From Diplonema papillatum (Eukaryota > Euglenozoa > Diplonemea > Diplonemida > Diplonemidae): DNA of 64,000 nt. The stretch spans positions 115,778 through 179,777 of the forward strand of contig JAPJBO010000454.1 in the NCBI GenBank assembly GCA_030068145.1. The letters are read 5' to 3'. Made by a program: the position numbers and the translations under genes. Below the pieces are notes generated by a model, which saw only the letters and a program-made list of their open reading frames with translations, was not told the origin of the DNA and did no database searches. Each line of letters opens with the position of its first letter. The first letter of the stretch is position 1. Below are positions 7,179 through 56,225 of the stretch, one piece after another.

Positions 7179-7292
7179 CATAAGCGCCAGCTTGAAAGGA
7201 AATGCTCGACGATGCTGCCCGACAAAGAACAGAAGGGATCCCAAGTGCAGTAACTACCGCACCACGTGTTGAACGGACGTGAGGTCATGCAG
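7179..7292 (+). repeat. Repeat A fragment abutting the 13-bp satellite
   Basis: Runs from ACATAAGCGCCAGCTTG to GAGGTCATGC. It breaks off at the point where the other copies continue into GGGTCTACCCC, and the 13-mer satellite starts at once. Confidence 0.75.
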
Positions 7293-9450
7293 TAGACCCT
7301 GCAGCTAGACCCTGCAGCTAGACCCTGCAGCTAGACCCTGCAGCTAGACCCTGCAGCTAGACCCTGCAGCTAGACCCTGCAGCTAGACCCTGCAGCTAGA
7401 CCCTGCAGCTAGACCCTGCAGCTAGACCCTGCAGCTAGACCCTGCAGCTAGACCCTGCAGCTAGACCCTGCAGCTAGACCCTGCAGCTAGACCCTGCAGC
7501 TAGACCCTGCAGCTAGACCCTGCAGCTAGACCCTGCAGCTAGACCCTGCAGCTAGACCCTGCAGCTAGACCCTGCAGCTAGACCCTGCAGCTAGACCCTG
7601 CAGCTAGACCCTGCAGCTAGACCCTGCAGCTAGACCCTGCAGCTAGACCCTGCAGCTAGACCCTGCAGCTAGACCCTGCAGCTAGACCCTGCAGCTAGAC
7701 CCTGCAGCTAGACCCTGCAGCTAGACCCTGCAGCTAGACCCTGCAGCTAGACCCTGCAGCTAGACCCTGCAGCTAGACCCTGCAGCTAGACCCTGCAGCT
7801 AGACCCTGCAGCTAGACCCTGCAGCTAGACCCTGCAGCTAGACCCTGCAGCTAGACCCTGCAGCTAGACCCTGCAGCTAGACCCTGCAGCTAGACCCTGC
7901 AGCTAGACCCTGCAGCTAGACCCTGCAGCTAGACCCTGCAGCTAGACCCTGCAGCTAGACCCTGCAGCTAGACCCTGCAGCTAGACCCTGCAGCTAGACC
8001 CTGCAGCTAGACCCTGCAGCTAGACCCTGCAGCTAGACCCTGCAGCTAGACCCTGCAGCTAGACCCTGCAGCTAGACCCTGCAGCTAGACCCTGCAGCTA
8101 GACCCTGCAGCTAGACCCTGCAGCTAGACCCTGCAGCTAGACCCTGCAGCTAGACCCTGCAGCTAGACCCTGCAGCTAGACCCTGCAGCTAGACCCTGCA
8201 GCTAGACCCTGCAGCTAGACCCTGCAGCTAGACCCTGCAGCTAGACCCTGCAGCTAGACCCTGCAGCTAGACCCTGCAGCTAGACCCTGCAGCTAGACCC
8301 TGCAGCTAGACCCTGCAGCTAGACCCTGCAGCTAGACCCTGCAGCTAGACCCTGCAGCTAGACCCTGCAGCTAGACCCTGCAGCTAGACCCTGCAGCTAG
8401 ACCCTGCAGCTAGACCCTGCAGCTAGACCCTGCAGCTAGACCCTGCAGCTAGACCCTGCAGCTAGACCCTGCAGCTAGACCCTGCAGCTAGACCCTGCAG
8501 CTAGACCCTGCAGCTAGACCCTGCAGCTAGACCCTGCAGCTAGACCCTGCAGCTAGACCCTGCAGCTAGACCCTGCAGCTAGACCCTGCAGCTAGACCCT
8601 GCAGCTAGACCCTGCAGCTAGACCCTGCAGCTAGACCCTGCAGCTAGACCCTGCAGCTAGACCCTGCAGCTAGACCCTGCAGCTAGACCCTGCAGCTAGA
8701 CCCTGCAGCTAGACCCTGCAGCTAGACCCTGCAGCTAGACCCTGCAGCTAGACCCTGCAGCTAGACCCTGCAGCTAGACCCTGCAGCTAGACCCTGCAGC
8801 TAGACCCTGCAGCTAGACCCTGCAGCTAGACCCTGCAGCTAGACCCTGCAGCTAGACCCTGCAGCTAGACCCTGCAGCTAGACCCTGCAGCTAGACCCTG
8901 CAGCTAGACCCTGCAGCTAGACCCTGCAGCTAGACCCTGCAGCTAGACCCTGCAGCTAGACCCTGCAGCTAGACCCTGCAGCTAGACCCTGCAGCTAGAC
9001 CCTGCAGCTAGACCCTGCAGCTAGACCCTGCAGCTAGACCCTGCAGCTAGACCCTGCAGCTAGACCCTGCAGCTAGACCCTGCAGCTAGACCCTGCAGCT
9101 AGACCCTGCAGCTAGACCCTGCAGCTAGACCCTGCAGCTAGACCCTGCAGCTAGACCCTGCAGCTAGACCCTGCAGCTAGACCCTGCAGCTAGACCCTGC
9201 AGCTAGACCCTGCAGCTAGACCCTGCAGCTAGACCCTGCAGCTAGACCCTGCAGCTAGACCCTGCAGCTAGACCCTGCAGCTAGACCCTGCAGCTAGACC
9301 CTGCAGCTAGACCCTGCAGCTAGACCCTGCAGCTAGACCCTGCAGCTAGACCCTGCAGCTAGACCCTGCAGCTAGACCCTGCAGCTAGACCCTGCAGCTA
9401 GACCCTGCAGCTAGACCCTGCAGCTAGACCCTGCAGCTAGACCCTGCAGC
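7293..9450. repeat. 13-bp satellite, 166 tandem copies
   Basis: 2158 bp, exactly 166 x 13, of TAGACCCTGCAGC. Comparing rows 780 bp apart shows no substitution or phase slip that I can see. Each unit holds CTGCAG, and junctions create CAGCTAG. Every plus frame contains stops, so it does not code. Confidence 0.97.
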
Positions 9451-9684
9451 GGCGGTGCGTCGCCCGGTCGTGTCTTGCCCGTGCCTTCGACTTCTCGCCG
9501 CTGCGTTGCCACCCCCCCCGTGGGTAGTGGGTCTGGGGTCGGAAGCTGCTGGTCAGGACACCCGCCTTCTCCCAGTGGCCGCGCTCTGGTCGCCCCATCC
9601 TTTGTTCGCCATCTTTTGGGCACGTGTGCCGTACGGCGGGCGATTTCGAACGCCCGCATCACCGCTTCGAAGGCCGTACTGGCA

Positions 9685-9975
9685 CGAGAGTTGTAGAATA
9701 GGTGGGAGGCCGCAACAATGAAATACCACTACTCTTGTTGTCGCTTTACTTATCCAATGCTGGGAAGACGGCAGCTGCTCCCTTGTGGGGTTAGGGTCTT
9801 GGGATCCGTAGCTTATCCGTTTCCAGCGACAAACGGGCTTCGGCACGCGAATCCTCGTTTGGAGACACCAGTCAGGTGGGGAGTTTGGCAGGGGCGGCAC
9901 ATGTGTTACACATTAACGCAGGTGTCCAAAGGCAAGCTCAGCGGGAACAGTAATCTCGCGTAGAGCATAAGGGCG
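9685..9975 (+). rRNA. LSU (28S) rRNA fragment, domains IV-V, pseudogene
   Basis: Sense-strand match to conserved eukaryotic LSU: GTAGAATAGGTGGGAGGCC, GAAATACCACTACTCTTG, GGTGGGGAGTTTGGC, ACGCAGGTGTCC and CTCGCGTAGAGCATAAG. Both ends are abrupt. About 50 bp (CGTAGCTTATCCG...) is re-duplicated at 9974-10015. Small changes from the copies at 46 and 55 kb (CCAAAGGC for CCTAAGGC) fit a decaying fragment. Confidence 0.85.
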
Positions 9976-10156
9976 TAGCTTATCCGTTTCCAGCGACAAA
10001 CGGGCTTCGGCTCGCGCAACTGCCGCAGGGACTGAAGGCTTACTCGAAATGTCCAGCATGCACCCGTCAAATTGCCCGCAACTGCCGGCATAGCTATCTG
10101 GCACCCCCAAGCACTTCATGTAGCCATGCCGCCTGCTGCTTTTTTTTTTTTTTTTT

Positions 10157-10425: not shown

Positions 10426-11104
10426 GAGAGGAAGTCTGAGCGAAGCCTTCTTCGAGAAAAATGAGATGGAGAAGAAGAAGGACCCTTTCCCCCCAGTGTT
10501 AGTGTCGGCTAGCTGCGGCAACCTTCCAAATGCCGCACGTCAAGCAGGGGAAGAAATCCTATGCCGTTTAACATCGCTTCTGTCCTCCGTCCAGCTGCAA
10601 AACGTGGACGATGTGTGAATCCCGGCATTGAGGCTGCCGAGCAGAAGGCACAACGGCAGCGTGTCGATGGCTTCCTGCAGCAGCTCGCACCATTCCTCGT
10701 CTCTGAAGGAGCATCGGGTCCAGACGACCGCGTGCGAAAGAGACTTGCCAGGCACGTCATGGCTGGCTTGTCCAACCGGTTGCCGCTGACGTCGAGATCT
10801 CCGAGGCCTTGTCCTGCAGGTCCGTGCATGAACGTGAATTTTCAATCTGTGTTGCCGAAATCGCCAAAATGACACTTTCTCCTCCTTCTCCTTTACTTCG
10901 AGACAGATGCATGGTCTTAGCCATGCATGATAAAACATTAACCTCGAATTCCCTCCCCTTTCCGTCTGCATGTGGCTCGTCTCTTTTCCATTCTTGCATA
11001 TCGGGCCTGCATGTCCCATCAAAAGCAATCGAAAATAAAACAAAAGAGCGTTTTACCACCTTGCGCGGTGCCACGGGTTGTTTGGCAGCCGCTGCTAAAC
11101 ATCC
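10426..11104 (-). other. Possible decayed LRR-type exon; otherwise unassigned
   Basis: On the minus strand, about 10510-10830, GDLDVSGNRLDKPAMTCLA resembles a leucine-rich-repeat turn, and another minus frame continues with WCELLQEAIDTLPL. The two frames would need a frameshift to join, so at best this is a remnant. Nothing else recognised here. Confidence 0.2.
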
Positions 11105-11215
11105 GCAAACAGTGCATGCTAATCCATGTGGTTCATGTACTTAAAATAACTCAATGCCAAGTAAGATACCGTGGGCGGCGCCGAAGCTTTACCAGCTTCA
11201 GCTGACACCATTTGC
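11105..11215. repeat. rDNA 3'-flank fragment
   Basis: CAGTGCATGCTAATCCATGT through AACTCAATGCC matches the retrotransposon's 3' flank at 23627-23680 and, with changes, 55276-55325. It then diverges through GTGGGCGGC. Confidence 0.6.
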
Positions 11216-11579
11216 GCACTTAACCATGGTTAAGAAGACGACTGAAAGCACAGACACAAAGATAGCTCAAAGCATCTGCAAAATAACACGAAAAGCCTCC
11301 AGGCAAAAAACCCGTTTTCACATTTCTTATTGTCGTAGAAGACGCTGGTCTTTGAAGATTCATATTAACCTACACCTACGCATAATATGGCTGCGGTGCT
11401 GGACTTCTCTCTCCTCACACAACTGCCCACGAAATACGCAATAGCCAAAGCTTGCACTGTTGAAAATCGGCTGATTTTGTACGAGTCTGCCGGTACAATA
11501 AGGGCTCGAAATTTAATCAGCCGTCAAGCCGATCGCGCGCACGCCGACAACGTCTAACAAAAATTCTTTGCTACACATT

Positions 11580-15262: not shown

Positions 15263-15420
15263 TTTTCACACTTCTTCTTCTCTTCTTCTGACCGGAAAGT
15301 GGACAGGTTGGGCCATCAGACAACGCAACACCGGACCAAATTCGCTGGCGTGCGCGCGGTAACATACCCAGTTTCACTGGAGTGCCCGTTCCCGGCGAGC
15401 TACGAGGGAACGAACCTGTA

Positions 15421-15497
15421 AGAGTGCCAACGCTACTCTTTCAATAACGTACATATAAAAGGTGTCACGGGATAAGCCGTCAGCCGCTGCTTAACGG
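15421..15497. other. rDNA 3'-flank, left side of the filled target site
   Basis: AGAGTGCCAACGCTACTCTT through CATATAAAAGGTGTC to GCCGCTGCTTAACGG matches 55172-55275 apart from a short internal deletion. At 55 kb it continues into CTGAGTGCATGC and then the 28S 3' end. Here it is interrupted by the retrotransposon. It carries a TATA-like CATATAAAAGG at about 15451. Confidence 0.85.
15487..15497 (+). repeat. Target-site copy 1 (CTGCTTAACGG)
   Basis: Eleven bases repeated exactly at 22759-22769 and 23616-23626. They occur once at 55265-55275, where no element is inserted. Confidence 0.85.
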
Positions 15498-15593
15498 CAA
15501 AGGAAGCACACCAAGAGAGTACAGAAAGAAACGACAAGAGGAGAAGAGAACCAGACGGAGAGAAAACACGTCAGAAAACCGGGCCCGACCGCA

Positions 15594-17477
15594 ATGGAGG
15601 AGATACAGCAGTATCTCGCAAAGGCACAGCTCCTCGCGGAGACAGCCGAAGACGAAGCGCAGTACTGCACTGTGTTCGGGATCGTCAAGATCCTACTGAT
15701 CCTGTCAGAAAGGATGGGACGAAAACATCCCACGGTAAGGGCAGAGAAGGCGCCGAAGAAGGAAGCGAAAGCGGAAGTGAAGGCCGAACCGCGAAAGACG
15801 CAGGCCAACTGGAAGGCGGACGCACCGGCAGTGCGGCGAGAAGGCGCGTGGACGACGGTGCCGCCGAAAGGAGGCCCGAAGAGCGCAGAGGCGAAGCCGA
15901 AGCAGGAGATGAAGAGCGGCTGGCTGAAGGTCGCGACCGCCGGGAAGGAAGCGCGGCGAACGACGACTGCAGATTGTGGTAAGAAGCCCGATGGCGAGAA
16001 GAAGCCCGTTAGCAGAGGAAAACCTGCTCTCAGAGCGAAGGATTGGGAGCTACCGCTGATCGATGCGAAGCTGCTCCTCGACGAATCCGAGAAGAAGGCG
16101 AAGCCAGAAGGCGTAATCGAAGCAACGATGGGCGAAGGGAGGCGCGTGCTCCAGTACGCCGACGAGCTGACGCAACTGGAGACGGAAGGGGTACGTTTGG
16201 TGATCGTCACCCCGCGATCCATAGCCGAAGACTCGACGCGCGAGCTAGTGTTCCGGGAAGACGGGTCAGTGGAGTACGCGCACGTGACACTGCGCGGAGC
16301 CAAAACGGCGAAGCCATCTGGAGGACAGGTGACGCTGGATGGGGACGCCTCGGCAACACGCGTGCTCGTGTTCACGGCACTCCATCGCGAACTGACAGAC
16401 GAGAAGGTCGAGATTCTGCGGAGTGAGACGAAGGGGGCCGGGGCCACCGACACGCTGTGCGCGAGATCGGCAAAGGGGGCAGCCGTCACCATCGAGAGGC
16501 GACACCGTTGGCGCCACGCTAGGATGTCCGATCGTAGCACGTGCATGGTCCGGGTGCCGCAAGCACACGCAGCCAGCCTCCTCGGGGCAAGCGGACACGA
16601 AGGGCTGTTCTGGTCGGCTCCGAGGTTCGTAGAAGGTGGGGAGTCCCACAAAGTTCAATGGCTTGCAGAGGACGCGACCTTGGAAGAGGCCCTGGCTCTT
16701 ACAGCCTTACCGGGGACACACGGTCTGGTGCCGGCGAGAGCACGATTGGGTGTACGTTACAGCGCGGAAGGGGAGCAGCTCGAGGCGTTGCGAGAGGCGG
16801 CAGGCATGCTGCTCGCTCCGGAGCTGCCGGACGAAGGAGTTGCGTACTTTGTCACGGGCGGCCGGAACGAGCACGCCGAAGACATCGTGCAGGCGCTCGT
16901 GCGCGCGGGCTGGGTCGGCAGGACGCGGAAGACGTTCTCGAAGAAAGGGAGGACGCGGATGGTCGTGACGGCGCAAAGCCCGCCCCCAGCGGAGGTGCTC
17001 AGGCGCGCCGGACGGGACCCACTGCACATCCGCGAGCTCGCCCACGGTGACGAGAGAAGGGCGGAAGCCAAAATCTGGCACGGGAAGGTCCCCAGAGTAA
17101 CCGTACCTGGAGAACCACAGGCCGACGAAGCGGTAAAAGAAGAGCACTGCCACGAATGGCAGGAAGCAGCGCGCAACAAGAGCGAAACTGTATGCTCGGT
17201 ATGCGACACCACCCGCCAGAAGGGAACGATGATGAGGGCGTGCGCATGCGAGTCGAAGATCTGCGTACCTGGAGAACCACAGGCCGACGAAGCGGTAAAA
17301 GAAGAGCACTGCCACGAATGGCAGGAAGCAGCGCGCAACAAGAGCGAAACTGTATGCTCGGTATGCGACACCACCCGCCAGAAGGGAACGATGATGAGGG
17401 CGTGCGCATGCGAGTCGAAGATCTGCGCCCCTTGCTTCGCGGCGAGGAAGAAGGCGACGCAGGACGAGGCGGTCTGA
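15594..17477 (+). CDS. Retrotransposon ORF1 (gag-like, zinc-binding)
   Basis: 627 residues from the first ATG after the 5' junction. Residues about 50-170 are Lys/Glu/Ala-rich and basic, fitting an RNA-binding region. Residues about 195-500 look globular but unrecognised. The C-terminus is Cys/His-rich (EEHCHEW, VCSVC, RACACES, ICAPCF). A 54-residue module is tandemly duplicated without a change (period 162 bp, starting at 17103 and 17265); only the second copy keeps the final C-x2-C (ICAPC). By position and composition it should be the nucleic-acid-binding partner of ORF2 in the RNP (family knowledge). It ends at TGA 17475-17477, directly followed by CTA, with ORF2 continuing in frame. Confidence 0.85.
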   Translation: MEEIQQYLAKAQLLAETAEDEAQYCTVFGIVKILLILSERMGRKHPTVRAEKAPKKEAKAEVKAEPRKTQANWKADAPAVRREGAWTTVPPKGGPKSAEAKPKQEMKSGWLKVATAGKEARRTTTADCGKKPDGEKKPVSRGKPALRAKDWELPLIDAKLLLDESEKKAKPEGVIEATMGEGRRVLQYADELTQLETEGVRLVIVTPRSIAEDSTRELVFREDGSVEYAHVTLRGAKTAKPSGGQVTLDGDASATRVLVFTALHRELTDEKVEILRSETKGAGATDTLCARSAKGAAVTIERRHRWRHARMSDRSTCMVRVPQAHAASLLGASGHEGLFWSAPRFVEGGESHKVQWLAEDATLEEALALTALPGTHGLVPARARLGVRYSAEGEQLEALREAAGMLLAPELPDEGVAYFVTGGRNEHAEDIVQALVRAGWVGRTRKTFSKKGRTRMVVTAQSPPPAEVLRRAGRDPLHIRELAHGDERRAEAKIWHGKVPRVTVPGEPQADEAVKEEHCHEWQEAARNKSETVCSVCDTTRQKGTMMRACACESKICVPGEPQADEAVKEEHCHEWQEAARNKSETVCSVCDTTRQKGTMMRACACESKICAPCFAARKKATQDEAV

Positions 17478-17483
17478 CTACGA
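17475..17483 (+). promoter_or_regulatory. Candidate stop-codon readthrough site UGA-CUA
   Basis: The ORF1 stop TGA is followed by CTA CGA, and the same frame then stays open through ORF2. The first downstream in-frame ATG is at 17583, 105 bases later. UGA followed by CUA is an established leaky context in eukaryotes and their viruses. Readthrough here is inferred. Confidence 0.5.
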
Positions 17484-18300
17484 CGCCACTACGGTGAGAC
17501 GACGAAGGCGGCACCGGCAGAGGCCTCCTCCCATCAACCCGAACGCGTCCTGTCGGCGAGCCTCGTACGACCACGACAATCGATGCCCTGGGCCTATTGC
17601 CGTACTCGGCAGGTCCGCCAGTTCTCCCGACCGACAACGCGCACGACGAGCCGACACAGACGATCCGGAGGACGATGCCACCGCCGACCCACGCTCTTCT
17701 GTCGAAGCCCGCCGGAGCAGGTCAGACGGACGAAGTTATCAGTTGCGGAGGCACGCCGAAAGCACCTGCTGCTAGGAGGGGACATCGAAGAGAATCCCGG
17801 CCCCCGATGCTGGAGCGTCGCCACACTCAACGTGTCCTCGCTCTTGCGGTACATCCCGGCAGTGAAAGGGGTGTGTACCGACGTCCTCTGCTGTCAGGAG
17901 GTGACACTCCTAGAGACGAGAAGGCCGGAAGCGGAGATGCATCTCGAAGACTGGAAGTGTCACTGGGGGAGTGAACCGATGGGGAGGAGCTGTCGATCGT
18001 CCGGAGTCAGGTCCGAGACGAGCGCGAGGAACGGGGGAGTTTGCACCTTGGTCCAGAAGCCCGTGCCGGCGTTCTCTCCCACGGCGCTGCACCAGATGAT
18101 TGGCAGTGCGTACACTGATGCCCGCTTTCTGCACACGGCGGTCGCCACGGGAACGGGCAGCACGTTCGTGCACGTGATCAACCTGTACTGCCCGTCAGGA
18201 AACGACAGGTCGGTAGTCGACGACAGGGAAGCATTGTTGGAGAGGGTCCTCTTCGCCGCAGCGGACAGCCTCGGCGACGTTCCAATCATAGTCGCCCCCG
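17478..18300 (+). pseudogene. Retrotransposon ORF2 N-terminus: 2A-like peptide and truncated APE endonuclease
   Basis: In frame with ORF1. After a basic leader comes LLLGGDIEENPGP (17766-17804), then SVATLNV (Asn codon 17829) and DVLCCQE (Glu codon 17898), the first two conserved blocks of APE-type endonucleases. A central region with NGGVCTLV and FVHVINLYCPSG follows. At DVPIIVA, where the family continues with its GDFN catalytic block, sequence is missing and the frame changes from 0 to +1 at about 18295-18301. The original frame runs on only to a stop at 18398. The catalytic Asp-x-Asn is therefore lost, and this copy should be unable to nick DNA. Confidence 0.8.
17766..17804 (+). other. 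2A-like ribosome-skipping peptide LLLGGDIEENPGP
   Basis: Fits the D-(V/I)-E-x-N-P-G-P consensus exactly, preceded by a Leu-rich stretch as in characterised 2A sequences. It lies just upstream of the endonuclease, as in some trypanosome and animal non-LTR elements. Skipping would release a mature ORF2 protein starting at the final Pro. Confidence 0.8.
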
Positions 18301-21300
18301 ACACTCCGGAAGGCTCTGCGGAACGGGTGGTCCGACGCAGCGCGACTACAAGAAGTCAGCACAGGGCAGGCCCCCGACGCCACCTTCGCCACCTGTAGCA
18401 CCCCGGGCACGCGCATCGACCGCCTGATGATGAATCGGGTCGCGGCGCAAGCGTTCTCGAGCTGCACTACGACGATCGTGGACGTACCTGGACACCGACT
18501 CGTGACTGCCACTTTCGATCTCGAGGCGTTCGACCAGACGGTTTGGCGGTACCGGTTGCCGCGGCCGATTCAGGTCAGACCGCTCCAACAGCAATTGGCC
18601 ACGGTGGAAGAAGACTCAGCGCGGGCACGTCAACTCCTAGAGCAGTCGAGGTTTGCCCAGGCAGTGGGGAACAGCGACGTCGACGAGGCGTGGCGAGAAT
18701 GGTCTGCAACGGCGGAAAGGCACCTGCTGGACTTGTGCCAAGTTCAGACGTCAGAACGTCGGCGTTTCACAGGACGAGGTCGTCTGCTGGCACCAACGCG
18801 TGCGAGGGCGACAGCGAGAAGTTCCAGTGACGGCACAGGAGCAGCCTCGGGTGTTCAACTCCGACTGCGCAACACCATCCATCGCCTAGAGCAGCTACAC
18901 CGGCACCTTACGAACCGAGGGGGACCACAGTCGACGCCGAGTCAGATGCAGAACTGCTGGAAGAACTGTAGGAAGCTCGCGAGTGAGTGCGCAGCACTAC
19001 GCGGAAAGCCGATGACGGCATGGGACGAATTGCCCAGTCTCCAGGAGTGCAGCAGTCTGTTGCAGGCAGTCCGGGAGAGGAACGGAGCGATCGGAAAGGC
19101 CAGCATGGAGGCTCGACGTGCAAAATACTTCACCGGAGCGACAAAGCGAGCGGACGAAAACAGGCGGAGTGTCGTAGCGTGGTGCCGACGGCAACACAGG
19201 CAGGAAGCGACCACGCTGGAAGGTGAGCGGACCACGGCAAACGCAGAGGAAATGGACGCAGTGCTTCAGGACGCATGGGATCCGGTCTTCCGCGCCTACA
19301 AGGACGGTCCCGAGCCGCCCTACACACCTTTTGCTGGCCGGTACCAGCGCTACATCGATGGACACCCTCAGGAAGTAGGCGAGATCACGGGGACAGAGCT
19401 ACGCGCGCTGCTAACGAAGAAAGGCGTCAAGGGTGCTTGCGGGATCGACGGCTGGAGGATGGCTGAGCTGAAGGCACTCCCCGACCTGTACCTTGAATCC
19501 CTGGCCACGCTGTTGAACCTGGTCGAGAGAACGGGGATCTGGCCGCAGGCAATGCGAACAGCTCTCGTGAGTATGATTCCGAAGGGCGACGACGGGCAAC
19601 CGCTCAACATGCGACCGATAACGGTGACATCCTGCGTGTACCGCCTCTGGGCCTGCCGGCGTCTGAAGGATGTTGCGGTGTGGCAGGAGAGTTGGGTCGA
19701 GGAGGGTCAACACGGTTTCCGACCTGGCCACCGGGGAGAGGACCCGTTGTTTACAATGACGCTCGAGATCGAACGCGCCTTGCTGAGCGGCGAGCCACTG
19801 TGCGGGCTATCTCTGGATTTCTCGAAGTGCTTTGACCGCGTCCCGCGGGAAATCGCACTCCGCCTCATGCAGGACCTCGGGCTCCACTCCCGGATTCTGA
19901 AACCGCTGAAGTCCATCTACGACACCCTCGTCAGGCGGTTCAAGCTCCCCCTCGGGGTCGGAAAGGAGTTTCAGGTGACGAACGGCATTCTGCAAGGGTG
20001 CCCTATCTCGGTCATCCTGATCAACGCGCTGCTGTCAGTGTTGATGAAGGCGGTAAAAGTCGAGGCACCAGGCGTGTCGACGCAGTCGTACGCAGACGAT
20101 GCGAATTTGTTGGCGAAGCACTCCGAGGCAGATCTGCAACGGGGCGCGGACTTAGTCGATGAGTTCTGCGCGCTGACCGGCATGTCGCTGAACATGGAGA
20201 AGACGGTAACGTTCGCGACGGGGCTGGGCCGTAGGACGAAGATCTTCCGCAGCAGCACGGGCGAGCAGTTCGCACAGAAGGAATCGCTGAAGTGCCTGGG
20301 GGCTAAGGTGAGCACCTCACGCAGCGGCCGCGACCACTTTGACTCTTCCCGGTTTGAAGCAGCAGCAACCACAGCTCGGAACCTACGGCACGTCCCAATT
20401 CCGAGGCAGCAGAAAACCCTCATCGTTCAATCAGCCATCCTGCCCGCCGCTCTCGCGAGAATATCGTTCGCGCCCCCTACGACTGAAGCCGTGGAGAAGC
20501 TGGCGACAGCGTTAACGTTAGCGATCTGGGGGCCGAAGAATCCGAAGCGCTCCTCGGAAGTAGTCTTGGGAGTCCTCGAAAAAGCCCACTTGACGCACCC
20601 TGCGACGGCGACGGCGTACCGAATAACCGCGGATTTCTACAGCGCCTGTGGGAGACTGCCGCACCTGATGCCGCTGATGACGGAAGTCCGGCGCCTATAC
20701 GGCGAACGAGTGACCGCAGCCCTTGGCCCGGTGGGAACCGCGGTAAGGCACGGCCTGCAACCCTGCGGCCACACGTGGAACGGCGGCCCGCCGTCGTCCG
20801 TCAACCTGGACGGAGCTGCACTCCGACCCCTGGCAATGTCCGCCTCCTCGCGAAATCACATCATCCGCGACAACCTGCGGAACCGACTGTGGAAGCGGTT
20901 GGAAACACGACGGCCAAGCTTCTCCGGCATCACCAACATCGCGATCGAGTCCACCAACGCTCTATGGACAACGCGCCACTGTCCGCCCCAGAACGCGCTG
21001 CTGATCAGGGTTGCCCTCGCAGGTGGCGTGAACACCGCCGAATACACGTCGAGATTTCGCCAAGGCGGAAGCCCCGCCTGTACGTTGTGTGGCTCGGGAG
21101 CATTGGAAGACGAGCACCACGTCTACTGGGATTGCACGGCCTTCGAGAACATACGCACGAAGCCCGAGTACGCGGGGATCGCACAGTCCGACAGGAGGCT
21201 CTGGCCGAGCTGCCTGCGGGAGCACGGAATCGTGACGCCGGCGACACGGGAATTTGCCGGGCCGGTACAAGCGCTGATGGCAGAGATCCTGGCGGAGCGG

Positions 21301-22701
21301 GCGCGCCGGATCAGCGTTAGATGGCTAGAACGTAAGGCGGCGACCCCCTGGGAGCGCTGCGCGCAGATGCCAACGGCGAAACGCGAGTTCCCGTTCCGGC
21401 GCATCGCCCCGGCCTGGGCGTGGCTACGCTACTGGGACGAAAGGACATTCCTGGCAGCGATCGACTGGCTCTCGGGCCTCGAATGGTCATCGGATGGCGA
21501 CATGGCAGCGGTAGAGGCAGCTATCGACTTCGAGCTGTTCTCGGGCCTCGACATCAAGGCACCTAGCAAGGCGGCCAAGACGCATCGGGAGAAGGCCAAC
21601 GGGATGCGCTGCATGTTGAGCGCAATCAACAAGCTGGCCGTGCAACAACAACTCGGCAAGTGCCTCCCTGGCGACTTCAAGTCGAAAACGACAGCCTTGT
21701 CGTTCATAGGCCTGAGCAGCGTACCCGGCTTCCAGCCCCGGCCCCGCCACCGCATGCCCGAAACCGGGCCGACCATCATGCAGCAGGTGAAAACCGGCTA
21801 CGGCACAGCGCCGGCGTACCCGCCCGAGCGGACGGACAGAGCGCGGCGATGGGTAATCCCCAGAGCGCCACTGGCCAACCCGGATCCCCTGCACCTCCCA
21901 CACGCAGTGCCGGAGGCGACGAAGAATGCCCCCAAGTGCGCTACCCATCACAAAGGGAAGTGCGCAGTCTGTCGCGCACTCGGACACCACCACGGCCCTA
22001 CGGTGGAGGCATGTTGCCGACACCACCACGCCGACAACGACGGCTTACCTCCGGCCGTCTGCGACCGGCACCGCATGACGAGATGCGTGGAGTGCAACAC
22101 GCCAACAGCGTGCTGCAAGGCCGGCCACCATGACTGCCGCGAACACGCCCGCGGTCCGTGTGACGACTGCCGCGGCTTACCGACGCTAGCGGAACGGCGG
22201 CCGTCAGCCTGCTGCAAAAAGGGCCACCACGTGCCAGCGCCCCCGAAGCCAGCCCCCGCTAAGCCGAAGCCAACAACGCCGCGGAAGAAGGGCCGACAGA
22301 AGCCGACGACACCACCGCGCATGAAGAGGACGCGTCAAGCGTCCCCAAAGGCGGCCAAGATGGCGAAAAAGCACGCTCCGACCGAGCCGGCCCGAGCGAC
22401 ACCACCAAGAAAGGGGCAGAAAAGAGCCCGACTCCCGACACCACCGAATGACCCGGCGGGAAAACCCGGAAAAAAGCACGCGGCGCGAAAGCGCAACATT
22501 TCGAGAATGGAGCTGGATATCACCAGCCCTGCCACCTCGACTTCATCCTCATCCATGTCAGGATCGCCCCCTCGAGCGACTGCTTCGGCAGGACAGCCGG
22601 CGCGAAAGCGCAACAAACGAAGAATGGAGCTGGATATCACCAGCCTAGTATCACCGTCCTCGTCGGCTTTGAGATCGTCCTCGGACGACGTATTCAAATA
22701 A
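18301..22701 (+). CDS. Retrotransposon ORF2: endonuclease C-terminus, reverse transcriptase, zinc fingers
   Basis: Open from the frameshift (TLRKALRNGWSDAARL, then GTRIDRLMMNR as the endonuclease C-terminus) to TAA 22699-22701. The first ATG is at 18424, but this is the interior of ORF2, not a natural start. RT blocks in order: GVKGACGIDGW; MIPKGDDGQPLNMRPI; GQHGFRPG; LCGLSLDFSKCFDRVP; GILQGCPIS; SYADDANLL (catalytic YADD at 20089-20100). A CTLCGSG...HHVYWDC finger follows at about 21090-21140. Near 21940-22175 are three C-x2-H-x4-C-x2-C units (CATHHKGKCAVC, CDRHRMTRCVEC, CREHARGPCDDC). The tail is Lys/Pro-rich with RMELDITS twice, ending DDVFK. It reverse-transcribes element RNA at the nicked target (family knowledge). 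Confidence 0.9.
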   Translation, partial: TLRKALRNGWSDAARLQEVSTGQAPDATFATCSTPGTRIDRLMMNRVAAQAFSSCTTTIVDVPGHRLVTATFDLEAFDQTVWRYRLPRPIQVRPLQQQLATVEEDSARARQLLEQSRFAQAVGNSDVDEAWREWSATAERHLLDLCQVQTSERRRFTGRGRLLAPTRARATARSSSDGTGAASGVQLRLRNTIHRLEQLHRHLTNRGGPQSTPSQMQNCWKNCRKLASECAALRGKPMTAWDELPSLQECSSLLQAVRERNGAIGKASMEARRAKYFTGATKRADENRRSVVAWCRRQHRQEATTLEGERTTANAEEMDAVLQDAWDPVFRAYKDGPEPPYTPFAGRYQRYIDGHPQEVGEITGTELRALLTKKGVKGACGIDGWRMAELKALPDLYLESLATLLNLVERTGIWPQAMRTALVSMIPKGDDGQPLNMRPITVTSCVYRLWACRRLKDVAVWQESWVEEGQHGFRPGHRGEDPLFTMTLEIERALLSGEPLCGLSLDFSKCFDRVPREIALRLMQDLGLHSRILKPLKSIYDTLVRRFKLPLGVGKEFQVTNGILQGCPISVILINALLSVLMKAVKVEAPGVSTQSYADDANLLAKHSEADLQRGADLVDEFCALTGMSLNMEKTVTFATGLGRRTKIFRSSTGEQFAQKESLKCLGAKVSTSRSGRDHFDSSRFEAAATTARNLRHVPIPRQQKTLIVQSAILPAALARISFAPPTTEAVEKLATALTLAIWGPKNPKRSSEVVLGVLEKAHLTHPATATAYRITADFYSACGRLPHLMPLMTEVRRLYGERVTAALGPVGTAVRHGLQPCGHTWNGGPPSSVNLDGAALRPLAMSASSRNHIIRDNLRNRLWKRLETRRPSFSGITNIAIESTNALWTTRHCPPQNALLIRVALAGGVNTAEYTSRFRQGGSPACTLCGSGALEDEHHVYWDCTAFENIRTKPEYAGIAQSDRRLWPSCLREHGIVTPATREFAGPVQALMAEILAERARRISVRWLERKAATPWERCAQMPTAKREFPFRRIAPAWAWLRYWDERTFLAAIDWLSGLEWSSDGDMAAVEAAIDFELFSGLDIKAPSKAAKTHREKANGMRCMLSAINKLAVQQQLGKCLPGDFKSKTTALSFIGLSSVPGFQPRPRHRMPETGPTIMQQVKTGYGTAPAYPPERTDRARRWVIPRAPLANPDPLHLPHAVPEATKNAPKCATHHKGKCAVCRALGHHHGPTVEACCRHHHADNDGLPPAVCDRHRMTRCVECNTPTACCKAGHHDCREHARGPCDDCRGLPTLAERRPSACCKKGHHVPAPPKPAPAKPKPTTPRKKGRQKPTTPPRMKRTRQASPKAAKMAKKHAPTEPARATPPRKGQKRARLPTPPNDPAGKPGKKHAARKRNISRMELDITSPATSTSSSSMSGSPPRATASAGQPARKRNKRRMELDITSLVSPSSSALRSSSDDVFK

Positions 22702-22758
22702 CCCTAGCCTATGACAAATGCAAGCTCACCCCTGTGGTACCTGCATTTCAAGTTCACA

Positions 22759-22769
22759 CTGCTTAACGG
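22759..22769 (+). repeat. Target-site copy 2 (CTGCTTAACGG)
   Basis: Separates the full-length element from the 5'-truncated copy. Confidence 0.85.
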
Positions 22770-23615
22770 AGGGCGACGAAGAATGCCCCCAAGTGCGCTA
22801 CCCATCACAAAGGGAAGTGCGCAGTCTGTCGCGCACTCGGACACCACCACGGCCCTACGGTGGAGGCATGTTGCCGACACCACCACGCCGACAACGACGG
22901 CTTACCTCCGGCCGTCTGCGACCGGCACCGCATGACGAGATGCGTGGAGTGCAACACGCCAACAGCGTGCTGCAAGGCCGGCCACCATGACTGCCGCGAA
23001 CACGCCCGCGGTCCGTGTGACGACTGCCGCGGCTTACCGACGCTAGCGGAACGGCGGCCGTCAGCCTGCTGCAAAAAGGGCCACCACGTGCCAGCGCCCC
23101 CGAAGCCAGCCCCCGCTAAGCCGAAGCCAACAACGCCGCGGAAGAAGGGCCGACAGAAGCCGACGACACCACCGCGCATGAAGAGGACGCGTCAAGCGTC
23201 CCCAAAGGCGGCCAAGATGGCGAAAAAGCACGCTCCGACCGAGCCGGCCCGAGCGACACCACCAAGAAAGGGGCAGAAAAGAGCCCGACTCCCGACACCA
23301 CCGAATGACCCGGCGGGAAAACCCGGAAAAAAGCACGCGGCGCGAAAGCGCAACATTTCGAGAATGGAGCTGGATATCACCAGCCCTGCCACCTCGACTT
23401 CATCCTCATCCATGTCAGGATCGCCCCTTCGAGCGACTGCTTCGGCAGGACAGCCGGCGCGAAAGCGCAACAAACGAAGAATGGAGCTGGATATCACCAG
23501 CCTATTATCACCGTCCTCGTCCGCTTTGAGATCGTCCTCGGACGACGTATTCAAATAACCCTAGCCTATGACAAATGCAAGCTTACCCCTGTGGTACCTG
23601 CATTTCAAGTTCACA
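22770..23615 (+). mobile_element. 5'-truncated second copy of the same retrotransposon
   Basis: Starts AGGGCGACGAAGAATGCC, equivalent to about base 21913 of the full element, and is nearly identical to its last 846 bp; I count only a handful of substitutions (for example CCCTCGAG to CCTTCGAG and AGCTC to AGCTT). It is bounded on both sides by CTGCTTAACGG. Its ORF remnant (22860-23558, 232 residues) covers the C-x2-H-x4-C-x2-C fingers and the ELDITS tail. Either a second insertion into the regenerated site or an unequal-crossover duplicate. Confidence 0.85.
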
Positions 23616-23626
23616 CTGCTTAACGG
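23616..23626 (+). repeat. Target-site copy 3 (CTGCTTAACGG)
   Basis: Right-hand boundary of the truncated copy, followed by TACAGTGCATGCTAATCC, the right side of the empty site. Confidence 0.85.
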
Positions 23627-23760
23627 TACAGTGCATGCTAATCCATGTGGTTCATGTACTTAAAAGAACTCAATGCTTAACGGCTTATCACGTGGGCGGC
23701 CCTGAGATTACCCCCTCAGGTGACACCACTTTATCTTTAGCCATACTTCAACGCTCTTGT
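23627..23760. other. rDNA 3'-flank, right side of the filled target site
   Basis: TACAGTGCATGCTAATCC through GTGGGCGGCCCTGAG to CCCTCAGGTGACACCACTTT matches 55276-55375, which runs directly into the antisense 28S 3' end. In this copy about 20 bp around the 28S end is missing (TTTATCTTTAGCCATA). Confidence 0.8.
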
Positions 23761-43904: not shown

Positions 43905-44560
43905 CTTCAGATTGGGTTGTGGCCTTTCCGACACACGTATATGTCCCCGTCCGTAAAGGGTAAAACTACTTTAGTATACGGTAGGAACTGGAGCAAAGCG
44001 CATGGCAGGATGAGAACACCACCCGAGCCTTCAACAGGAGAATTCGGGTGGGTTGAGGTGGGTCTTCTGAGACTGAATTCTTCTAAATGGGTTTATTAGC
44101 GAAGGGTCAAATGTTCACTAACCCCAAATTCAAGCCAAAAACTTCACTTATTTGACCGTTCAGCAATAAAAAAAAACTCTCCAAGAGAACCCATCCGTCA
44201 ACGGTCGCACGGAGACCCCGAAACCCCGGAATTGCAAGCGAACTTTAACTCTAAAAGGCACTATTCCACGAGAAAGTACATATAAAAACGCGGACAACAG
44301 ACCGGTACGGGCTACAAGGCAACCCCTGCTCAACTTTACAGAACTCAATGCTCAACTCAACTGGCTCACCTCTCGCGCATGCATCAAGTTTTCTTCGAAG
44401 AAAATTAAAACAGAAAGGGGAAAGGGAAAGGGTCGTAAGGTGCGTCGCGTTCTTATCTCCATCCAGCCCCATAAATGAATACAGAACAACGCGCCGCGAT
44501 TCTTTCCCTCCGTTCGAACGTGCGAGGAGATGACTGGAAGAGAAGCAATTGTCCCCCCCC
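43905..44560. other. Unassigned stretch with repeat C fragment
   Basis: Bases 44080-44165 resemble 56453-56540 (TAGTGAAGGGTCAA and AAAAGCTTCACT blocks). Bases 44176-44256 are a 3'-end repeat C fragment. A TATA-like CATATAAAAAC is at about 44279. No supported gene. Confidence 0.45.
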
Positions 44561-44582: not shown

Positions 44583-44948
44583 TCCTGCTGGTGGCGGAGA
44601 TCCTGGCAGAACGTGCGAGGCACGTCAACCAAGAGTGGACGGACCGCAAAGCAAGGCCTCCGTGGGAGCTTTGCGGGCAGAATCCGGCGCGAAGGTACGA
44701 TTTCCCGTATCAGCGGGTCACCCATAGGGCTTGGGCGTGGTTTGCGGTACTGGGACGAGCGAACCTTCCTCGCCCTCGTGGACTGGCTCGTGGTCATCGA
44801 CCGACGACGTAGCATCGGTCGAGCTCTCGCTGGCGACTTTGAGCTGTACTCCGGCCTGGACGTGCGGCTGCCCCAGAAGGAGGCGAACACGCTTCGCGAG
44901 AAGGCGAACGGCATGCGCTGCATGATCAGCGCATGGGCAAGAAACTGA
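44583..44948 (+). pseudogene. Internal fragment of a related retrotransposon ORF2
   Basis: AEILAERARHVNQEWTDRKA ... HRAWAWF and, after a frameshift at about 44745, RYWDERTFLALVDWLVV ... DFELYSGLDVRLPQKEANTL, REKANGMRCMISA. These parallel AEILAERAR, RYWDERTFLAAIDWL, DFELFSGLDI and REKANGMRCMLSA of the main element. Truncated and frameshifted. Confidence 0.8.
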
Positions 44949-45805: not shown

Positions 45806-46072
45806 AAATGCTTCATGGGTTTGAAGAGCGCGTGGTGCTTGCACCACTGAGGCCAGGTTATTTAACCGCGGATTTATTGGTCCACATGCAGGGGTGTCCA
45901 GGCCCACTAGTGGTCAAGGCCGCACAGCCAGGTGTCGCCAAGTCCAGTAGCGACGCTATTTCTTTTGCCGTCGCACATAAGGGGAAAGGTTTTTTTTTCC
46001 CTCGAACCTTAAGCGCCCACACGTGGACCACACGTATTTTCTCTGAGACCGAAAACGGAGCGTAAGCCCTGC

Positions 46073-46402
46073 CCTTATGCTCTACGCGAGATTTCTGTTC
46101 CCGCTGAGCTTGCCTTAGGACACCTGCGTTAATGTGTAACAGATGTGCCGCCCCAGCCAAACTCCCCACCTGACTGGTGTCTCCAAACGAGGATTCGCGA
46201 GCCGAAGCCCGTTTGTCGCTGGAAACGGATAAGCTACGGATCCGAAGACCCTAACCCCACAAGGGAGCAGCTGCCGTCTTCCCATCATTGGATGGGTAAA
46301 GCGACAACAAGAGTAGTGGTATTTCATTGTTGCGGCCTCCCCACCTATTCTACACCTCTCGTGTCACTGCACAAAGTCAGACTAGAGTCAAACTCAACAG
46401 GA
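46073..46402 (-). rRNA. LSU rRNA fragment, domains IV-V, pseudogene
   Basis: Antisense: CTCTACGCGAGATTTCTGTT, TAGGACACCTGCGTTA, CACCTGACTGGTGTCTCC, TGGTATTTCATTGTTGCGGC and AGACTAGAGTCAAACTCAAC. It overlaps the fragments at 9685 and 55384 in LSU coordinates and extends further towards the LSU 5' end. Confidence 0.85.
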
Positions 46403-54200: not shown

Positions 54201-56225
54201 CGACAACTTTGAACGGTGGCTCTACTATTCGCAAACGAACAGGCTTACGATCCCGACCAAAGTGGCACGATGTCGATGACAGAGTACGTTGGCTTGTGCG
54301 CCTTCCTGCAGATTGCGACCAACACCTTCCAATCGTTTGACGCGCAGGTGTGGGGGCTCTTTTTTTTTGTCGTATAAGATCGCAGATCTTAGAAGATTAA
54401 TATATCCGACGAATACCTAACACTCGTTGCAGGTTGAATAAGCCCGTCGCTATCCCGAAAACATCGTAACTTCACCCCTCGCTTGCCCCCTTGTGACAAA
54501 CACACCGAATCACTGCCTGACCTTTCTACTTTCGATTTATGCATCACCCGCGACGGTGAAGACGAAGCAGCAGACGGAGCCAGTATACGCAGTAGGAGGA
54601 GGATGTATTGTAGTACGAACAATCTTGCGGGTTGCCCTTCAATGTATTGTGGGCAGGCTAAAAAGACGTAAGGCAGCGTGTTTTTGTGGTTGATCAGAAT
54701 TCTTTACCTGGATGTATACACAAGGGTAAATACAAGTGGGGAAAACAATCAACCGGCACGCACAAACACACAACCGCGGTTGTCATGATCAAAAAGTGAC
54801 GGTTGGCAGCGTTCTGTGGAAAGTACCATACAGGTGATACACATACGCACAAACACACAACCGCGGTTGTCATGATCAAAAAGTGACGGTTGGCAGCGTG
54901 TGGAAAGTACCAGAACAGGTGATGGCACATACGCGCAAATAAAATCCGCGGCAAGTGTTGCTTGGTGTGCTTCCACGTGTGGATCCACAGGTACCCCATG
55001 TGGATTCTGATGGATTTTCCCCCCCGTGTCCGCATTGGCTTGCCACAGGTTGGTCCACAGGCAGGGGGGTCTAGGCCCACAAGTTGCCAAGGCCGCACCG
55101 AATGTGAGAGTACGTTGGGTAGTCAACCGTACCGACACAGAAGAGGTGTCTCTGATCTCCTGAAGACTGGGCAGTAAGAGTGCCAACGCTACTCTTTCCA
55201 TAGTGCAGTCTATTCATGATAACCAAATACATATAAAAGGTGTCGCGGGATAAGCCGGCAGCCGCTGCTTAACGGCTGAGTGCATGCTGATCCGTGTGGT
55301 CCGTGTACTTCAAAGTTCCCAATGCTTGACGGCTTTATCACGGGGCGGCCCTGAGAGTACTCCCTCAGGTGCCACTTTATCTAGTTCTGGCTTAGAGGCG
55401 TTCAGCCATAATCCATCCAGTGGTAGCATCACGGCACTGTCCGATCGAACAACCGTAGATACCAGGGACTAGAAACGGGAGTTCCTCTCGTACTACCCCG
55501 TATTGCTGTCGGAATGCGCTGGCCCGATGGGCTCTCTCTCCATCAGTAGGTTAAAACCAACCTGTTCCCTGTCAGTGGGTGAACAATCCAACCCTTAGAC
55601 AATTCTGCTCAGCCAGTTATCCCTGTGGTAATTTTTCTGTCACCTCCGGCTTCATCCCTTGAACATGAAGCGAGACCAAAGGATCGTTAGGCCATGCTTT
55701 CACACCGAGGATCGGTGCTGAAGATCGTGTATCGAGCAAGCTTTTACGCTTATGCTCTACGCGAGACTTCTGTTCCCGCTGAGCTTGCCTTAGGACACCT
55801 GCGTTAATGTGTAACAGATGTGCCGCCCCAGCCAAACTCCCCACCTGACTGGTGTCTCCAAACGAGGATTCGCGAGCCGAAGCCCGTTTGTCGCTGGAAA
55901 CGGAGAAGCTACGGATCCGAAGACCCTAACCCCACAAGGGAGCAGCTGCCGTCTTCCCATCATTGGATAAGTAAAGCGACAACAAGAGTTGTGGGCGGCC
56001 CCCTCAGGTGACACCACTTTATCTTCAGCCATACTTCAACGTTCTTTGTAGCTCGCGAGTGGTGTCACAAGTTTTGCGTCCACATTTTTCTCTCAGACCG
56101 AAAACGGAGCGTAAGCGCTGCATGATGGATGGCCATTTTCAAAACCTTCCACCTCCCCACAGCGCACCGGCCAAGTGAGGTTCAACGTCAGCCAGTTCAT
56201 CTACGCCGTTTCGCAAACGAAGTGA
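51237..56225 (+). CDS. Penta-EF-hand calcium-binding protein, four exons
   Basis: Exons 51237-51500, 52613-52729, 54243-54347 and 56163-56225, all joined in phase 0 at GT-AG sites (donors GTATGC, GTATGT, GTGTGG; acceptors end CAG). The spliced product is 182 residues, the size of a penta-EF-hand core. Loops: EF1 28-39 (DRDRSGRVDTKE), EF2 64-75 (DTDRTGQVTFQG, Gly at the final position), EF3 94-105 (DRDRSGSLDIGE), EF4 130-141 (DPDQSGTMSMTE), EF5 160-171 across the last junction (DAQRTGQVRFNV). The layout matches ALG-2, peflin and sorcin, which bind Ca2+, dimerise through EF5 and act as adaptors in membrane traffic (family knowledge). The short N-terminus is Pro/Gln-rich. The introns hold repeats B and C and an antisense 28S fragment. 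Confidence 0.85.
51990..52200 (-). repeat. Repeat B copy, right terminus missing, in PEF intron 1
   Basis: GTATAAGCACCTGCTTTGGA and GCTTGAGGAGACTGCCAGTC at the left; the right end is replaced by repeat G at about 52205. Confidence 0.7.
52205..52462 (+). repeat. Repeat G, plus-oriented copy in PEF intron 1
   Basis: Longest copy: TTTGGGATTGGTCTGCGTTC through GAGCCGTACACTCCCCTCTT and GAAGAAGACTTGATGCTAGC to AACTAAGATTTTCCCC. Confidence 0.75.
52522..52562 (+). pseudogene. Decayed duplicate of PEF exon 2
   Basis: CACTCAAACAG followed by codons for SFFHFDPDQRSLS mirrors the true exon 2 start (CACTCAAACAG, SFYHFDRDRSGS) 91 bp downstream. Homology is lost after about 13 codons. Confidence 0.65.
53178..53310 (+). 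repeat. Repeat C, 5' part, in PEF intron 2
   Basis: GGAACGTACTTGGTGTCGGT through TTGCTCTAAGAGAACC; it then diverges. A 3'-end piece (GGTCACACGGAGACCC to CTCTAAAAA) is at 53560-53621. Confidence 0.7.
54765..54900. repeat. Short tandem duplication, about 82 bp, in PEF intron 3
   Basis: CACACAACCGCGGTTGTCAT and AAAAAGTGACGGTTGGCAGC occur at 54768-54814 and 54853-54899. Contains the palindrome AACCGCGGTT. Confidence 0.85.
55165..55383 (-). other. rDNA 3' flank with the unoccupied retrotransposon target
   Basis: Contiguous with the 28S 3' end on the minus strand. CTGCTTAACGG at 55265-55275 is followed directly by CTGAGTGCATGCTGATCC. In the occupied locus the same two sides are 8.1 kb apart. It carries CATATAAAAGG at about 55231 and AGAGTGCCAACGCTACTCTT at 55172. 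Confidence 0.8.
55384..55990 (-). rRNA. LSU (28S) rRNA 3' fragment, domains V-VI, pseudogene with deletions
   Basis: Antisense: CTTAGAGGCGTTCAGCCATA (3' end), the intact sarcin-ricin loop complement at 55481-55494 (GTTCCTCTCGTACT), TTATCCCTGTGGTAA and TAGGACACCTGCGTTA. Two conserved stretches are missing: about 28 bases at about 55565 (the GAGCTGGGTTTAGACCGTCG region) and about 70 bases at about 55610 (between GATAACTGGCT and AGCAGAATTG). The upstream end breaks off at 55990 and abuts another rDNA-flank piece. It lies in PEF intron 3, opposite the gene's strand. Confidence 0.9.
55992..56045. other. Second rDNA-flank fragment
   Basis: GTGGGCGGCCCCCTCAGGTG, ACACCACTTTATCTTCAGCC as at 23693-23755, fused to the interior of the 28S fragment. 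Confidence 0.65.

Follow-up and report, generated by a model that had tools for sequence, protein, structure and literature searches.

Tx1L resides in a DNA transposon of Xenopus, and the transcripts of R1 and R2 can include sequence adjacent to the target that guides the 5' junction. The enzyme open reading frame (ORF) of L1Tc opens with a 2A-like motif, and that of L1Tc/ingi has an RNase H domain. In dinoflagellate genomes, relic spliced leader (SL) exons are traces of reverse-transcribed mRNA. Transposons are a known target class of target-specific long interspersed nuclear elements (LINEs) (PMC4640811). SLACS, CZAR, and CRE (CRE clade, trypanosomatids) are site-specific LINEs of Euglenozoa that are tied to the SL (PMC12278014), and L1Tc has a Pr77 promoter, unspliced transcripts, and a hepatitis delta virus-like ribozyme (PMC8190864, PMC4035085). 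Here, we describe element A, probably an apurinic/apyrimidinic endonuclease (APE)-type LINE by its sequence, in a stretch of 64,000 nucleotides from Diplonema papillatum (the window; 115778-179777 of contig JAPJBO010000454.1, C454 in our numbering) and in the genome assembly around it (271,365,524 bases in 2910 contigs scanned). LINEs that target transposons are known; what is new is that some copies of A carry the SL, in all likelihood joined at an acceptor that is supplied by the insertion site.

Insertion site of A and its duplication

The 3' ends of A were searched for with its last 123 bp without flank, a query chosen against flank bias. Of the 587 candidates the best 40, all 100% identical, were sampled, and the DNA beyond each was taken in, read, and tallied. 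A continued with TGCT at the expected place in 39 of these 40 ends, as TGCT[TAC]AAC in 34 and exactly as TGCTTAACGG in 24. Past the site came a remnant of a related LINE, B, followed by the dispersed repeat host-1 (15 ends), host-1 at once (7, L124 being partial), a B remnant followed by other sequence (5), a second dispersed repeat, host-2 (5, two of them via a B remnant), or other sequence (7). In six of the last seven loci the other sequence codes for a LINE, either A itself or a relative (43-100% identity by tblastn, E <= 1.6e-17); the seventh, L115, matches no part of A. In the whole genome, the 3' end of A followed by the full 11-mer CTGCTTAACGG was found 212 times as an exact match. Site-specific insertion of a non-LTR element, as the original prediction had it from the window alone, is thus strongly supported. 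The 11-mer also stands at the element boundaries where it had been placed (15487, 22759, 23616, and 55265); with at most one mismatch it occurs six times in the window against 1.15 expected, a number reached in none of 100 shuffles.

Both ends of an insertion were present in one locus in 24 rows. Four with further sites between the ends were set aside, which left 20 rows from 18 loci. Identical 10-mers were found at both ends in 16 of the 20 rows (14 of the 18 loci), with insert lengths of 43-1254 bp. In host-2, A is flanked on both sides by TGCTAAACAT in the pair L013/L132 and by TGCTCAACAT in the pair L010/L133. Since the letters of the 10-mer vary with the host repeat and yet agree on both sides, the 10-mer is a target-site duplication. 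These two pairs rule out that it is A's own tail, a possibility under which the earlier interpretation would have failed. B remnants in L109 and L118 likewise have matching sites on both sides, and the variant TGCTTAGCGG is present three times in L088. In L023 and L030, the last part of A alone (52 and 43 bp including junction bases) lies between CTGCTTAACGG and CTTATCACG. Inserts of such different length at one point indicate repeated 5'-truncated insertion. In the window, a truncated copy follows the 5'-complete copy tail to head (22767-23626 against 21911-22769, 99.4% identity). The site, its duplication, the truncation, and the stacking are all observed directly, and it is strongly supported that A is a target-specific LINE with nearly all copies at one site.

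A single A insertion in host-1 might instead have been copied with its flanks by the machinery of the host repeat, which would mimic a site preference. The A-bearing host-1 copies do have a common left-flank subfamily (CTTTCAATAACGTACATATAAAAGG), although this may partly reflect the search query, itself taken from that subfamily, and 5' truncations of differing length are expected of a retroposed composite. However, the truncated inserts lie at an identical point, A is also present in host-2 with a matching duplication, and the right sides differ among the five 5'-complete host-1 copies for which this side is known (TAG-B in two, and TACAG-B, B directly, and no B in one each). Given these varied right-side contexts, the host-1 copies are very unlikely to be one copied composite.

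Spliced leader on A copies

The 39-nt leader AACCAACGATTTAAAAGCTACAGTTTCTGTACTTTATTG, which is listed as a Euglenozoan SL (PMC3795323), occurs 300 times exactly in the genome (157+143; reversed control 0), and on contig C1335 it repeats about every 1.24 kb. The published D. papillatum genome has a size of about 280 Mb, and its SL genes form tandem arrays together with 5S and U2 (PMC10161547). The 300 exact SL exons exceed the 110 SL RNA gene copies given in that paper; some stand single on contigs, and these could be further retrocopies of trans-spliced mRNAs.

A search for the 5' end of A gave 20 candidates, all of which were scored; 19 of them were analyzed (L001-L019). Ten of the 19 (L009-L018) open with SL exon sequence, 11-38 nt from its 3' part. 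L010-L016 have an exact join of the SL to GTGTCACGGG, the sequence that comes after ...ATATAAAAG in host-1. The 20-nt join was found seven times exactly in the genome, all in these seven loci (control 0), and the join in L009 is GAGTCACGGG, with one base changed. In L017 and L018 the SL is joined to another leader, GTGGCTTACC (GTGGCTTACCGTGGTCGCC...), and thus A used at least two upstream acceptors. These SL joins are direct observations. The SL gene itself runs on with GTACTTTAACACATCC, and its own intron starts with GTACTTTAAC, not GTGTCACGGG; therefore, the join is not SL-gene sequence, and it fits trans-splicing at the AG of host-1. The gene sequence also rules out that the 36-nt leader, which the SL precedes in the retrocopies, is the SL-RNA intron. 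From these sequences, the RNA of A was in all likelihood trans-spliced at an acceptor of its target and then reverse transcribed. LINE reverse transcriptases can switch templates, and the enzyme might have finished an unspliced A RNA and then moved on to a second template, SL RNA or an SL-capped mRNA; the other leader in L017 and L018 would suit such a jump. However, random switching would yield varied joins, and seven loci have the SL join at exactly the same base after the AG, the eighth having it with one base changed. We consider template switching very improbable.

SL remnants were found in none of the eight copies inside host-1 (L001-L008) and in 10 of the 11 copies outside it (hypergeometric probability 1.2e-4); the surroundings of L009-L018 (host-2, a related host, B or A tails) were judged by eye. 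Retention of the SL outside host-1 and its loss inside suggest homology-guided 5' joining. A 17-nt internal duplication is common to L003-L005 and most SL-bearing copies, suggesting that one kind of RNA was inserted at host-1 sites and elsewhere alike. Most simply, the complementary DNA (cDNA) would pair, through its leader, with the same leader upstream of a host-1 site.

Taken together, A would integrate by target-primed reverse transcription at a short site, typically CTGCTNAAC, probably after nicking by its APE domain. The site belongs to a hairpin (its loop and 3' arm) found in several dispersed repeat families (host-1, host-2, and others). Insertion duplicates about 8-10 bp or more of the target, frequently with 5' truncation, and restores the site every time, so that later insertions of A or B are stacked on it tail to head. 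The AG that would work as SL acceptor is 36 nt upstream of the site in host-1. Read-through transcription would give an RNA that is trans-spliced at this AG, and the product, SL plus 36-nt host leader plus A, would be copied back into the genome; in the expected template RNA the SL would be joined to GTGTCACGGGATAAGCC, running into A. At a new site in host-1 the leader of the cDNA would match the upstream sequence, and the 5' end would join by homology with loss of the SL. Outside host-1 the 5' end would be joined without leader homology, and SL remnants would be kept. A has probably been active recently. We regard this model as a whole, an APE-type LINE with one short site, an SL acceptor supplied by the target, and homology-guided 5' joining, as highly probable.

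Several observations weigh against it. One of the 40 sampled 3' ends (L126) is without the motif, and the sample of best matches under-represents older copies. The 10-mers differ in four of the 18 loci (L026, L080, L084, and L086), three of which deviate in the last one or two bases, as a duplication of about 8 bp would. L009 and L012 are without a clean left duplication, and a third pair, L011/L134, was not canonical when checked for the 3' end of A. A distant 5' end, C21 (77% identity), was left out of the 19 analyzed. L019 lies outside host-1 and yet has no SL, and the hypergeometric value for the distribution of SL remnants, 1.2e-4, overstates independence since the A copies share ancestry. 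Finally, the match of ORF2 to Exo_endo_phos is weak and under the Pfam cut-off (E=2.5e-4, 21.3 bits against 24.5), the domain being split by the frame interruption of ORF2 in the window copy.

Host repeats, B remnants, and layout of the window

A search for host-1 (query 55165-55400) gave 40 rows, 30 of which were taken in. Host-1 is a dispersed repeat whose copies vary at the 5' end, and across loci 60 distinct tails end with CATACTTCAAC or a close variant. Behind it (e.g., 23753-23758) the first two bases vary and the next four are mostly TCTT (T 46, C 55, T 56, and T 54 of 60 at positions 3-6); this could be a tail, or it could mark where the host repeat itself prefers to insert. The 15-mer GCCGCTGCTTAACGG occurs 789 times in the genome (382+407; reversed control 1, 1+0).

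The original prediction placed the target about 100-130 bp downstream of the 28S 3' end, and in the window the repeat does run straight into the antisense 28S 3' end. In a search with window 55270-55620, however, this join was found in the window row alone out of 43; the other 42 start at query position >=114, in 28S alone. The right end of host-1 recurs at 55991-56040, and thus the 28S piece lies within host-1. Rfam at gathering score gave no match, to large subunit (LSU) rRNA or otherwise, over the 40 junction loci, and SL gene sequence was seen past the junction in none of the 40 sampled ends. The 28S copies found in the genome are without the target repeat. A BLAST search with six LSU pieces seemed to place 28S at many junctions; at the 40 junction loci these matches were to query 616-666, which is host repeat, and Rfam found nothing there. 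A fixed site in the rDNA flank is therefore refuted, and we give it practically no chance. In the window, Rfam at gathering scores found LSU alone as structured RNA, and with relaxed thresholds at the site it found LSU and weak matches far under the gathering scores. The window also has 28S fragments at 9680-9989, 46053-46366, and 55749-55994, overlapping parts of one region with 94-98% mutual identity, and they fit the roughly 3600 scattered 28S pieces of the published genome (PMC10161547).

The flanks of A do match 55165-55383, with antisense 28S next, and both loci belong to one repeat family; the supposed empty site at 55265 is not uninterrupted, since it is already occupied by a short LINE remnant. 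It carries CTGAG and a sequence of about 42 bp related to the 3' end of A, followed by TGCTTGACGG, and the right flank of A (23627-23683) is built alike. Alignment of 23632-23673 with the last 41 nt of A scored 40, which none of 1000 shuffles reached (mean 13.6, largest 29). Because this sequence aligns to the end of A and stops at the same junction type, we read it as the tail of the related LINE B. The canonical 15-mer with TGCATG within 20 nt was found 260 times exactly (control 0), a few of these being A tails. Directly joined to the host right end, it was found 92 times (control 0), some of which may have an insertion further on. Position 794 of L075 appeared to be a truly empty site; in longer context, a truncated A insertion with a longer target stretch has its left edge there. 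Among 100 listed of the 260 junctions before a B remnant there are 51 distinct strings, and 21 junctions are empty. Of the 79 non-empty strings, 50 start with C, the next base of the target, and 76 end with G, which speaks against random additions; most resemble a longer duplication followed by a few bases of B.

In host-1 the arms around the site, GATAAGCCG and CGGCTTATC, form 9 pairs in one subfamily and 6 before a bulge in the other. The arms form 7 pairs in host-2 (L023) and 6 in another form with arms from two loci (L017 and L120), and the pair flanking a single insertion, L013/L132, has TACATG and CATGTA. Arms swapped between families form only 1-2 pairs, except for the two host-1 subfamilies, which have a common left arm. 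The loops are alike (GCAGCCGCTGCTTAA and GCAACCCCTGCTCAA). The stem is likely to be conserved across host repeats, judging from the few families compared. It is conceivable, though we hold it to be doubtful, that several repeat families keep a paired stem with family-specific letters (GATAAGCCG/CGGCTTATC; CTACAAG/CTTGTAG; TACATG/CATGTA) around a similar loop, GCARCCNCTGCTNAA, as a shared docking platform. LINEs of more than one family would then recognize the loop as DNA, would have given up their own 5' control, and would take SL acceptor and leader from the landing site. If so, a single life cycle would tie the choice of target to trans-splicing.

Further units are present in the window. A third host-type unit at 11070-11250 (GGTGCCACGG...GGCAGCCGCTGCTAAACAT) has a B remnant and another terminal hairpin (GAAGCTTTACCAGCTTC), the layout being the same and the letters different. 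The site of a host-2 unit at 44270-44420 seems to hold no more of B than about 10 nt of its tail (CAGAACTCAA), which may be the shortest insertion seen, and 44587-44933 is 68% identical to A at 21273-21624.

The coordinates of these features are given in Table 1. GDIEENPGP at the start of ORF2 is, we assume, a 2A-like motif, and cleavage is only putative. The reverse transcriptase matches Pfam RVT_1 (E=6.2e-25). Among PDB sequences LINE-1 ORF2p is nearest to ORF2 (E=3.6e-21), with R2 behind (E=1.3e-11); this is a ranking by sequence, not a phylogeny, and Pfam and PDB gave no LINE clade. ORF1 (627 aa) had zero Pfam matches, and no RNase H match was found by Pfam at E<=1 in the enzyme ORF (1424 aa). 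Elsewhere in the window, a 13-bp tandem repeat, TGCAGCTAGACCC, occupies 7288-9450 (166 copies, 99% match).

Table 1. Features of A, its sites, and its host repeats in the window
Feature	Position	Strand	Basis or remark
Host-1 left part bearing A	15358..15497	+	113 nt ahead of GGATAAGC anchor common to other copies
AG serving as SL acceptor (inferred from retrocopies)	15460..15461	+	SL join position in L010-L016, L009
36-nt host leader in retrotransposed RNA	15462..15497	+	between SL and element in L009-L016
TGCTTAACGG, left target-site duplication	15488..15497	+	11-mer matches; identical-end comparison
Element A, 5'-complete copy	15498..22759	+	one of 19 A 5' ends; limits set by junctions
ORF1, 627 aa	15594..17477	+	includes 162-bp tandem duplication 17102-17427
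ORF2, first part	17583..18398	+	GDIEENPGP motif, APE/EEP-like endonuclease; frame interrupted downstream, before 18427
ORF2, second part	18427..22701	+	reverse transcriptase, zinc-binding motif, Cys/His-rich C-terminus
TGCTTAACGG separating two A copies	22760..22769	+	11-mer matches
Second A copy, 5'-truncated, tail to head with first	22770..23616	+	similarity to first copy
TGCTTAACGG behind second A copy	23617..23626	+	11-mer matches
TACAG and B remnant of ~42 bp	23627..23673	+	aligned to 3' end of A
TGCTTAACGG behind B remnant	23674..23683	+	11-mer matches
Host-1 right part, ends CATACTTCAAC	23684..23752	+	junction reads, tail comparison
Second host-1 copy, left part	55171..55275	+	includes site 55265-55275
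B-type remnant and mutated duplication TGCTTGACGG	55276..55332	+	remnant 55276-55322, TGCTTGACGG 55323-55332
28S fragment within second host-1 copy	55384..~55990	-	repeat resumes behind it
Host-1 right end, repeated behind 28S fragment	55991..56040	+	match to host-1 right end

Comparison with known systems

No published report of the target of A was found in the diplonemid LINE literature searched, which is not proof of absence. Likewise, the excerpts of the literature searched held no report of LINEs stacked in a repeat hairpin with a target-supplied SL acceptor and SL-marked retrocopies. Target-specific LINEs open a way to targeted gene insertion. For A, the natural insertions at a single short site number in the hundreds and include variant targets and truncation series. 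The SL exons on A copies mark the RNA molecules that were used as template. How a LINE forms its 5' junction, and whether trans-spliced capped mRNA is the template of retrotransposition in trans-splicing organisms, can thus be read from genome sequence.

Tx1L and other target-specific LINEs of the Tx1 and R1 clades are APE-type, as A probably is, and like A have a strict target in a multicopy sequence, a likeness by features and not by tree. A, however, targets a hairpin that dispersed repeats of a protist carry, its site takes up stacked insertions of several LINE families, and its retrocopies bear a spliced leader. SLACS, CZAR, and CRE are, like A, site-specific Euglenozoan LINEs connected with the SL. 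They insert in SL RNA genes and have a restriction-like endonuclease, whereas A lies elsewhere (TGCT-type sites in 39 of the 40 sampled ends) and has the SL only as the 5' end of the copied RNA; the CRE-clade hallmark of insertion inside SL RNA genes is therefore not seen in A. L1Tc/ingi and A are both Euglenozoan LINEs with a 2A-like motif opening the enzyme ORF. Unlike L1Tc, A probably obtains a splice acceptor from the target, and A has no Pfam RNase H match. As in R1 and R2 of arthropod rDNA, target-adjacent sequence in the transcript may guide the 5' junction of A, but the target of A is not rDNA, and its 5' end probably comes from trans-splicing rather than from a ribozyme. Finally, A shares with the relic SLs of dinoflagellates the presence of SL exons in genomic DNA, and those of A mark the 5' junctions of a site-specific LINE.

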